From Bacteroidota bacterium (GTDB taxonomy: Bacteria; Bacteroidota; Bacteroidia; Chitinophagales; Saprospiraceae), in NCBI GenBank assembly GCA_030147525.1, contig JASBVF010000053.1, forward strand, positions 62,001 to 126,000: a DNA stretch of 64,000 nucleotides. Reading direction: 5' to 3'. A program made the translations under genes and the position numbers. How positions within the stretch are numbered: position 1 is the first letter of the stretch; the number at the start of each line of letters is the position of its first letter. Shown piece by piece: positions 22,311 to 60,124 of this stretch. The notes below the pieces were generated by a model. The model made no database searches, was not told the DNA's origin, and saw only the letters and a program-made list of their open reading frames with translations.

Positions 22311-22375
22311 GGTTTTCAGGTTTTGTGGTTTGATGGCCGGCAATCCTCAAACCACAAAACCACCCAACCTTCAAC
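22311..22375. repeat. Heptad-repeat hairpin between the lipoprotein and WG-repeat genes
   Basis: A perfect 15-bp stem GGTTTTGTGGTTTGA (22319-22333) and its complement (22347-22361). Both arms show a 7-nt period: left-arm units with GGTTT, right-arm units beginning CAA at 22341, 22348 and 22355, then CAAC at 22365 and 22372. No T-run follows, so it is not an ordinary terminator. Confidence 0.65.
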
Positions 22376-27463: not shown

Positions 27464-28294
27464 ATGAAGATGAATTTAAAAAGAGACCTCTGCTTTTTCG
27501 ACATTGAAGCCACCGGCCTGAACGTCATGCGTGACCGCATACTTCAGATCGGGATTATCAAATATTTCAAAGACGGCAGAGAGCCGGAAGAGTTGGAAAT
27601 GCTCATCAATCCCGGTATTCCGATATCTGAAGAGGCGATGGGCGTTCACGGCATTACCCCGAAGGATGTTTCAAACAAGCCGGTTTTTGCGCAAGTAGCT
27701 CAACAGTTGTTCGACTTTTTTGGCGACGCAGACCTGGCTGGCTACAATATCAGCCGATTCGACGTGCCGTTGTTGATGGAAGAATTTGCACGGGTAGGGC
27801 TGGATTTTGATGTTGAAAAACGCCGGTTCGTGGATGTTCAACGGATTTTTTATAAAATGGAGCCCCGAAACCTGAAGGCTGCTTTGCGGTTTTACTGTCA
27901 GAAAGAATTCGAAGACGCACACGACGCCATGGCGGATGTACGTGCGACGGTAGATGTGTTTCATGGCCAGTTGAAGATGTACGAGGGCGTCGATCACAAA
28001 GATGATGACGGCAATGTAACGCCAACCCCCATCGTTCCCGATGTGCAGGTGCTCCATGATTTTACGCAGGATACCGGCACCATCGATGTGACTAATCGCC
28101 TGAAATACAATGAAAAAGGCGAGGTTGTGTTTAATTTTGGAAAATACAATGGCGTACCCGTTTTCAAGGTGTTTGACCAGGAACCGCAGTACGGCCACTG
28201 GATTTTGAATAAAGATTTTTCCGTTCAGGTGAAAAGCATCATCCGGAAAATGATGAAAGAACATGAGAGAAATAGTAGGCGACTAGGCGAGTAA
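27464..28294 (+). CDS. DnaQ-like DEDDh 3'-5' exonuclease with C-terminal ExoX-like domain
   Basis: 276 residues. The exonuclease fold has FFDIEATGL (Exo I, Asp and Glu), GYNISRFDVPLL (Exo II, Asp) and AHDAMADVRATVD (Exo III, His and Asp). The C-terminal part VVFNFGKYNGVPVFKVFDQEPQYGHWIL matches the small domain seen after exonucleases of the ExoX/PolC-like group. It may act in DNA repair or proofreading. The last residues (NSRRLGE) and the stop are encoded by an AGTAGGC-type tandem repeat that continues into the gap, so the C-terminal tail has been shaped by it. It follows apbE by 14 bp. Confidence 0.9.
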   Translation: MKMNLKRDLCFFDIEATGLNVMRDRILQIGIIKYFKDGREPEELEMLINPGIPISEEAMGVHGITPKDVSNKPVFAQVAQQLFDFFGDADLAGYNISRFDVPLLMEEFARVGLDFDVEKRRFVDVQRIFYKMEPRNLKAALRFYCQKEFEDAHDAMADVRATVDVFHGQLKMYEGVDHKDDDGNVTPTPIVPDVQVLHDFTQDTGTIDVTNRLKYNEKGEVVFNFGKYNGVPVFKVFDQEPQYGHWILNKDFSVQVKSIIRKMMKEHERNSRRLGE

Positions 28295-28320
28295 GCAGTA
28301 GGCACCGTCTACCGTCCACC
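28274..28320. repeat. Tandem AGTAGGC-type repeat at the 3' end of the exonuclease gene
   Basis: Four units with TAGGC or TAAGC at 28276, 28284, 28292 and 28299 (spacing 7-8), then two units ACCGTCT/ACCGTCC (period 7) on the other arm. The repeat includes the exonuclease stop codon at 28292-28294. Confidence 0.6.
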
Positions 28321-28333
28321 AAAAAATAATATC

Positions 28334-38980: not shown

Positions 38981-39032
38981 AAAAACAGCCGGGCAAATCA
39001 GGAAGACAAACTGACTTGTCCGGCTGTTTTTC
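38981..39032 (+). terminator. Rho-independent terminator of the propeller gene
   Basis: A long stem from ACAGCCGGGCAAATCAG to CTGACTTGTCCGGCTGT (one G-U pair, one mispair), with A- and T-runs outside, 23 nt after the stop. Confidence 0.8.
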
Positions 39033-39153
39033 GTTGGCGCCCCGACAATTTGTCAAGCTGGCCCCGCAAAATTTTCATTCCCGACCCACAATGCGTGACA
39101 CTTCGTCACTTTTACCGGCATGGCACGACCTATGATGAGGGAGGTTGATCAAT

Positions 39154-39249
39154 GATTGTTCATTGTTAATAGTTGATTGTTTTTCTTATACCGGCAGTCT
39201 GAAATGCCGGGTTGCAATCAACAATTGGCAATCCTCAATCACCAATTAA
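39154..39249. repeat. Heptad-repeat hairpin upstream of groES
   Basis: The left arm (39154-39181) is four exact 7-nt units of the form NATTGTT/AATAGTT. The right arm (39215-39249) is five exact 7-nt units of the form CAATNNN. The arms pair at about two thirds of positions. A second hairpin CCGGCA/TGCCGG sits in the loop. Confidence 0.8.
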
Positions 39250-39289: not shown

Positions 39290-39562
39290 ATGAATTTCAA
39301 GCCTATCAACGACCGTGTTGTTGTGAAGCCGGCACCCGCCGAGGAGAAGACCAAAGGGGGCATCATCATCCCCGATACTGCCAAGGAAAAACCACAAAGA
39401 GGCGAAGTCGTCGCCGTAGGACCTGGCAAAGACGGTAACGAAATGACTGTAAAGACCGGTGACATTGTGCTTTACGGAAAGTATGCAGGTCAGGAGTTGT
39501 CTTACGAAGGTGAAGACTTCCTTATCATGCGTGAAGACGACATTCTTGTTGTACTGGGCTAA
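39290..39562 (+). CDS. groES: Co-chaperonin GroES
   Basis: 90 residues, somewhat shorter than the E. coli protein but typical. It has [45 protein letters not shown] with the mobile loop ([12 protein letters not shown]) that docks on GroEL, and ends EDDILVVLG. It caps the GroEL ring during protein folding. It lies 64 bp before groEL in one operon. Confidence 0.98.
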
Positions 39563-39605: not shown

Positions 39606-41261
<1,656 letters not shown>

Positions 41262-43140: not shown

Positions 43141-43247
43141 AGTATACCCAAAGAAAAGTGGTTTGCGAAAATGGACGACTTTAAACAATTGAAAATCAGT
43201 CTGCTTGCCTACTGGCCTACTCGCAAACCGGCCTACTTTAGGTATAA
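43141..43247. repeat. Dispersed palindromic element, copy 3 (complete)
   Basis: The ends are inverted repeats: TATACCCAAAG at the left, CTTTAGGTATA at the right. Inner arms GGTTTGCGA and TCGCAAACC are also complementary. The right part has an 8-nt period (GCCTACTN). The centre includes AATTGAAAATCAG, shared with the other two copies. Confidence 0.65.
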
Positions 43248-59240: not shown

Positions 59241-59268
59241 TGTTGGCTGTTGGCTATTTAGCCGTTGA
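59241..59268. repeat. Short heptad repeat upstream of the YheT-type gene
   Basis: Two perfect TGTTGGC units (59241-59254), followed by TATTTAG and CCGTTGA in the same 7-nt phase. A short GGCTATTTAGCC hairpin sits over the third unit. Confidence 0.5.
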
Positions 59269-60023: not shown

Positions 60024-60124
60024 GGAAATTGGAAATTAAGTATTCAGAAAATTGAATTGAACTTTGAGAAGTTTTCAAAAACCTGATGGGTATTAAATTT
60101 CCAATTTCTAATTTCAAAATTTCC
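60024..60124. repeat. Heptad-repeat hairpin between convergent genes
   Basis: The left arm starts with two GGAAATT units (60024-60037) and AAGTATT. The right arm has AATTTCC, AATTTCT and AATTTCA in exact 7-nt steps (60096-60116) and a fourth AATTTCC one base out of phase. The arms pair over about 20 bp. Confidence 0.7.

Follow-up and report, generated by a model that had tools for sequence, protein, structure and literature searches.

What is the hairpin that precedes groES in this 64-kb window (the whole stretch of DNA analysed), both of whose arms are built from tandem 7-nt units, and does it stand alone or belong to a wider class of elements? The original prediction described four exact 7-nt units on the left, five on the right starting with CAAT and a second hairpin in the loop. 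Sequence and fold bear out this architecture, with the qualification that 'exact' holds for the spacing of the units and not for their letters, which vary between units. The locus contains the following features, with groES and groEL being ORFs that we take to be these genes from their sequence.

38981-39031, + strand: non-periodic-type, ordinary inverted repeat with a T run after it, outside the element; by its sequence probably the terminator of the gene upstream
39121-39136, + strand: promoter-like box TGGCACG-N5-TGAT, 5' of groES, with similar boxes 5' of groES in relatives
39147-39153, + strand: possible fifth, weaker left-arm unit, which may belong to the array
39154-39181, + strand: left arm, four 7-nt units (GATTGTT, CATTGTT, AATAGTT, GATTGTT) by sequence and lag-7 identity
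39191-39211, + strand: GC-rich apex hairpin CCGGCA...TGCCGG inside the loop, by fold and sequence
39215-39249, + strand: right arm, five 7-nt units (CAATCAA, CAATTGG, CAATCCT, CAATCAC, CAATTAA)
39290-39562, + strand: groES
39627-41261, + strand: groEL, 3' of groES

The groES-upstream hairpin and its counterparts in relatives

A 28-nt window starting at 39147 contains 20 matches at lag 7, and lag-7 identity reaches 16/21, a value equalled by 0.05% of 2,000 dinucleotide shuffles (P 0.0005); lag 8 does not rise above the same shuffles (P 0.68). The 126 nt from 39140 to 39265 fold to -39.3 kcal/mol against a shuffle mean of -22.4 (z -5.3), with 0 of 200 shuffles as good. By the scoring used, the longest ungapped inverted repeat between the arms is 12 nt, a divergence that makes the element look old and explains why it is missed by the strict genome-wide caller used below (arm of at least 18). 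The element has no close copy in its own genome (best other match E 0.22), and Rfam 15 gave zero family matches at or above the gathering score anywhere in the window.

Sigma-54 promoters follow the consensus GG-N10-GC. The box at 39121-39136 resembles a sigma-54 -24/-12 box in which GA replaces GC, at least two of the relatives' groES boxes (G016 and L054) read GG-N10-GC, and RpoN is encoded in the same genome as the window; this box and the similar ones in relatives suggest that groESL may be under RpoN here. If the box is of the sigma-54 type, transcription would start at about 39147, the hairpin's first base, making the hairpin the first structure on the groES message. Its end lies 40 nt from the start codon.

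GroES matches were found in 39 of 40 genomes, the window's own included. By GroES alone, the nearest species-named record is Phaeodactylibacter luteus (89%), among other Saprospiraceae, in a collection from which the own genome's record may be absent. Within the genus, 8 of 13 groES leaders (own included) carry a period-7 or period-8 array at P <= 0.01, with period 7 in the own genome and G009 and period 8 in G001, G006, G008, G010, G011 and G012, whereas the other 5 of 13 lack one at this threshold. By eye, the units read ATTGTTGA (period 8) in G001, G008 and G012 and ATTGTTx (period 7) in the own genome. Folding showed a clear gain over shuffles only in G000 (z -3.9) and G008 (z -4.3), with G007 at z -2.0. 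Among the best 80 of 587 wider relatives, arrays occurred in 3 of 80 leaders versus 1 of 80 shuffled, so the array is not a family-wide rule; one relative, L179, carries an unrelated period-7 hairpin in its groES leader.

Short-period hairpins across the genome

The own genome comprises 7.08 Mb in 59 contigs, from which we sampled 859 kb, consisting of the window and two sets of 20 stretches, calling inverted repeats with arms of at least 18 and taking genes as longest ORFs rather than from a gene finder. The first 20 stretches lay near the window or on contigs matching the groES element, and about half of them contain a weak match to it; the second 20, chosen without such a match, gave no fewer elements (19 versus 14). 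The sample yielded 81 intergenic inverted repeats, of period 7 (n = 11), 8 (n = 23), 9 (n = 1), 10 (n = 2) or 12 (n = 1) or aperiodic (n = 43), whereas two full shuffle sets yielded zero inverted repeats of any kind. E. coli K-12, over 150 kb, gave zero periodic inverted repeats and counts of 0 at both lag 7 and lag 8. Hairpins of period 7-9 thus occur at 41 per Mb, or some 290 per genome by extrapolation.

The periodicity is equally evident from arrays counted as 28-nt windows with at least 19 matches. Across 459 kb (the window and the first 20 stretches), lags 7 and 8 accounted for 18 and 25 of these, respectively, compared with 0-3 at lags 4-6, 9-15 and 17-20 and an average of 1 or fewer at every lag in shuffles; lag 16, a harmonic of 8, gave 16. 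The full 859 kb held 30 at lag 7 and 44 at lag 8, against 0-4 at lags 5, 6 and 9-12. Seven relatives sampled at 51-200 kb each contain 10-40 periodic hairpins per Mb (1-6 each, 18 in total), two of the six in G008 spanning an assembly gap (NN loop). The predicted class of short-period hairpins therefore exists, well above shuffles and neighbouring lags, and recurs in the seven relatives sampled. Contrary to what had been supposed, its period is not always 7: 23 of the 34 hairpins of period 7 or 8 have period 8, and period 9 also occurs. Separately, four inverted repeats with best lag 9 (CGCAGATT and CACGAATT types) lie within about 7 kb at L013:12317-19438; they resemble repeats that occur in many phyla.

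Two further elements were located in the window.

22319-22361, no strand assigned: arms GGTTTTGTGGTTTGA, 15 bp and fully complementary, with a period of about 8; lies 13 nt past a stop codon, by inverted-repeat and lag tests
60025-60108, no strand assigned: convergent gap with GGAAATT heptads that form arms of 13 bp, 2 nt past a stop codon (lag 7, P 0.0005)

The same 7-nt period had been proposed for the gaps at 22311, 28274, 59241 and 60024. It is found at 60024 and at 59241 (lag 7, P 0.0015; no inverted repeat), but period 8 fits better at 22311 (P 0.002 versus 0.035 for period 7) and the signal at 28274 is weak (P 0.0135 for period 7 and 0.03 for period 8; no inverted repeat). The longest ORF form of the gene next to the 22311 gap (from 22309) overlaps the 22319-22361 element. 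By eye, GTAGGC-type arrays are also visible in the window at 43201-43237 and 28262-28330; longer hairpins of this unit family occur in L021, L026 and L027.

Sequence families with tens of copies

The original prediction held that the class is defined by period and hairpin and not by sequence. This does not hold, as we found sequence families with tens of copies, four of which were searched in the own genome. The match rows given here include both palindrome strands and single arms, and places were merged by hand.

GATTCTTCG heptad family: 75 match rows, at least 28 places
AATTGGTR octamer family: 83 match rows, at least 40 places
GATGAAY heptad family: 65 match rows, at least 39 places
AATGAGAG octamer family: 79 match rows, at least 41 places

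These copy numbers are lower bounds because each DNA search scored only 40 first-look candidates. Across 26 aligned copies of about 80 nt (27 rows, of which one was empty), the AATTGGTR family consists of four GTRAATTR units, a GC-rich tip with GGG and CCC, and four complementary units, its consensus beginning GTaAATT; reading the flanks of these copies by eye revealed no shared flank. Median arm length in the other three families is 29-31.5 nt, or about four units, and the GATTCTTCG family is present in both senses. Two AATTGGTR copies in a single operon, which we take from its sequence to be an ATPase operon, are 96% identical, tip and loop included. AATTGGTR copies also cluster, with 21 pairs within 10 kb versus 2.2 expected, whereas the other three families cluster less (3-5 pairs versus 1.1-2.3 expected). 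About a dozen different unit cores were recognized by eye in the own genome.

Placement at the 3' ends of genes

The 34 period 7-9 hairpins between called genes occupy 23 tandem, 11 convergent and 0 divergent gaps, while divergent gaps make up 29% of intergenic bases in the sample; counted by gap, 0 of 93 divergent gaps versus 33 of 340 others contain a periodic hairpin (Fisher P 0.0005). Within tandem gaps, 21 of 23 hairpins start at most 25 nt from the upstream stop codon. Avoidance of divergent gaps is not absolute: the relatives' 18 periodic hairpins divide into 9 tandem, 7 convergent and 2 divergent, and the divergent share of family loci with both neighbours called is 4 of 68. The 77 merged family loci comprise 53 tandem, 11 convergent and 4 divergent positions; 3 more fall within called ORFs and the other 6 at the edge of a locus, as counted from the best 29-30 of 65-83 rows per family under a crude identity rule for merging that may drop real copies. 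Among AATTGGTR copies in tandem gaps, 19 of 21 lie between -5 and +10 of the stop codon.

Position in short gaps may reflect just the room left between the stop codon and the ribosome-binding site. With other places closed off by coding sequence and ribosome-binding sites, plain tolerance could account for much of the 3'-end placement in short operonic gaps. Of 10 family copies with at least 100 nt of free space to one side, 7 are no more than 35 nt from the stop, and the four tandem gaps of at least 200 nt in the first sample have hairpin-stop distances of -9, 5, 42 and 668. Two operons that we name Rnf-like from their sequence carry several such hairpins: one (L422, C11:1-14000) has a short-period hairpin at 6 of 7 junctions (period 8, two of period 9), the other (L421, C54:30001-50000) at 6 of 15 (period 8).

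The same junctions differ between species

We compared two junctions across species, naming the genes (ATPase subunits B and D, and galE) from their sequence. The ATPase subunit gene was located in 3 of 23 relatives, and all three junctions were compared. At the B-D junction, the own genome has period-8 GTRAATTR units, and G007 a period-7 GTGATTG hairpin. In G008 the hairpin has a GTCATT core whose spacing alternates between 9 and 7, whereas G014 has only one period-7 array nearby, which lacks an inverted partner. For the gap 3' of galE, 20 relatives gave loci and 12 were compared, among them L348 (G012), which has no galE call; the comparison left out G015 and seven order-level loci. The own genome here carries period-7 AAATTGR units, G009 a different period-7 hairpin and G011 a period-9 hairpin, with arrays of period 8 in G006, 7 in G007 and 8 in G014. 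In G004 and G008 the gap shrinks to 3 and 26 nt, respectively; G001 and G003 are without an array, G013 has a plain hairpin and G010 a weak inverted repeat. What the species share is the galE side of the gap alone, since the next gene 3' varies among them. Chance overlap of the sampled stretches provided no shared-junction pair.

Mirror symmetry of the arms

Arms agree at 0.925 in register versus 0.758 when shifted by one unit, and likeness between neighbouring units is 0.755, indicating that unit variants are mirrored between the arms. The 5' arm is richer in G than in C in 32 of 34 periodic hairpins versus 24 of 39 other inverted repeats with unequal counts, although members of the same family are not independent observations, either in this count or in those of gene context. 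Read in the transcript sense, arm mismatches of tandem elements comprise 19 of G-U type, 20 of A-C type and 24 others. G-U type mismatches are thus not in excess over A-C, and selection does not seem to act on RNA pairing, a result that favours an origin of the mirror symmetry at the DNA level; we rejected RNA-level selection as an explanation on these counts. At least five T within the 9 nt past the hairpin occur at 7 of 45 periodic ends versus 9 of 57 other inverted repeats.

RAYT genes and REP-like elements

The elements share with REP, REPIN and BIME sequences a short palindromic form, dispersal in many copies and a location chiefly downstream of coding regions, in some cases within 15 nt of a stop codon (PMC3733652, PMC12306157). 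They differ in having arms of tandem 7-9-nt units and no overall link to RAYT genes. The class is dispersed, extragenic and mainly 3' of genes, as REPs and REPINs are; the AATTGGTR consensus, the one consensus made, contains no GTAG (or CGTC) tag, and families flanking a RAYT gene were not found overall, with one exception on contig C59. Two of four Y1-type proteins tested in the own genome pass the NCBIfam REP_Tyr_transpos cut-off. A period 7-9 array lies within 500 nt of 4 of 39 RAYT or RAYT-like loci, all 4 being among 25 RAYT ORFs and none among 14 additional matches, which include fragments or duplicates; for ordinary genes the figure is 97 of 376 (26%) in the own sample and 10-28% in four relatives. 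We therefore rejected RAYT as a class-wide driver, with arrays at RAYT loci below the gene background, and given these counts the class is not filed as REPINs.

Individual RAYT loci vary in their surroundings. The gene at L109:1374-2563 (C59) has the GATTCTTCG heptad family on both sides, a possible REPtron of that family, and monomers occur in both orders, as in BIMEs. A RAYT in G032 has heptad arrays of unlike units on both sides, and at several other RAYTs the flanking palindromes are ordinary ones with no period. A RAYT-like gene in the own genome (L107:1500-2428, C48) lies between ordinary GCCGGGTTATTTACCCGGC palindromes, a classical-looking REPtron.

Published heptamer and octamer arrays

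Cyanobacterial STRRs are tandem intergenic heptamers. Head-to-tail intergenic heptamers are likewise what the groES element and the 11 period-7 elements consist of; the 23 others have period 8. The original prediction knew of no described counterpart in bacteria of this kind, but several reports come close. Geobacter metallireducens has a class of four tandem octamers GTTGCTYN (class 1; 48 sequences, in opposite-strand pairs at variable within-pair distance) and one of five tandem heptamers MTYCTGA (class 3; 16 sequences, also in opposite-strand pairs), termed 'putative global regulator binding sites', with IHF/HU proposed (PMC2700814). Opposite-strand arrays of four tandem units are also seen in our alignment of the AATTGGTR family, although the units differ and the Geobacter text consulted does not mention 3'-end placement (PMC2700814). 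Xanthomonas GGGAATC heptamer arrays have mostly four units, and the two genomes described contain 70 and 75 inverted pairs; they form one G-rich family studied as quadruplex, whereas here there are many families, few of them G-rich (PMC4692102). TAACTGA arrays occur in five Bacteroidetes with related heptamers mixed in; in that paper's main genome they are nearly all direct and mostly upstream of start codons, whereas here we find inverted pairs at gene 3' ends (PMC4679880). According to a survey cited in the same paper, long simple repeats in most genomes were most abundantly of the heptamer category. Among the literature matches listed, none was recognized as describing such elements in Saprospiraceae.

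Proposed origin of the groES hairpin and of the hairpin class

We consider the groES hairpin to be probably a diverged member of a genome-wide set of REP-like palindromes whose arms consist of tandem 7-9-nt units and which lie at gene 3' ends. It is atypical in sitting in a 5' leader and in having no close genomic copy, both of which count against membership. According to this proposal, arms of four units each, as in the aligned family, would often be closed by a GC-rich tip, and each family would spread as a small dispersed element; since no enzyme or target duplication was found, mobility is deduced from the copy pattern only. Elements would persist in the least harmful position, which lies after a stop codon and before the ribosome-binding site that follows, and a transcript hairpin there may slow exonucleases or terminating ribosomes. 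This functional guess is based on the report that REPs at most 15 nt from the stop codon stall ribosomes (PMC12306157). The groES hairpin, being at or near the 5' end of its message, would mainly affect messenger life-time. A bolder version, which we think less likely than not, is a distinct miniature element known by its build (about four 7-9-nt units per arm, a C-poor 5' arm, a GC-rich tip and landing at stop codons), with units swappable in place between 8-mers and 7-mers, so that sister species differ at one junction, and with an enzyme that would count or copy units.

Replication slippage might instead create and renew the arrays where they stand, as in STRRs, while strand-switching on the hairpin makes or corrects the second arm, with neither mobility nor function. 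The same junctions holding related units of another period (groES, ATPase) fit this, as do the unit variants shared by both arms and a proposal cited in PMC4679880 that the polymerase may interact with a stretch of 7 nt; slippage is nevertheless doubtful, given whole elements of the same build with similar tips at about 40 places and the near-empty gaps after galE in relatives. That RAYT transposases of this genome move the elements as REPINs appears unlikely: two REP_Tyr_transpos proteins, the GATTCTTCG-flanked and array-flanked RAYTs on C59 and in G032 and the two monomer orders speak for it, against the below-background array count at RAYT loci, the ordinary palindromes at several of them and the missing tag. 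Binding by a DNA-bending or architectural protein such as IHF/HU would suit a constant core with a variable linker in opposite-strand pairs, by analogy with the Geobacter proposal (PMC2700814), but about a dozen cores in one genome are hard to reconcile with it and the stop-codon location is left unaccounted for, making it, too, an improbable account.

Two readings that begin from the transcript seem to us very unlikely. Were the hairpins intrinsic terminators that happen to be repetitive, their placement past stop codons and in convergent gaps would follow, yet T-rich 3' ends are no more frequent than at other inverted repeats, and hairpins fill junctions in the ATPase and Rnf-like operons, at which complete termination would leave the following gene silent. 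A device specific to the groES 5' leader, for example an RNA thermometer, has on its side the arrays in most genus leaders, the position just past a promoter-like box and the L179 hairpin; set against it are the five leaders without arrays, clear folds in G000 and G008 only, the distance to the start codon and the near-shuffled frequency in wider relatives.

The main idea with which we began, that the groES hairpin represents a class of short-period elements, stands in corrected form: periods run from 7 to 9, sequence families exist and prior reports describe comparable arrays. The reports considered here on Geobacter, Xanthomonas, Beggiatoaceae and Bacteroidetes each treat their own arrays separately. 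That arms of about four short units recur among them hints at one process of origin, for which the text consulted has no name. With roughly 40 hairpins per Mb, many of them at cistron junctions, these elements could shape messages genome-wide.
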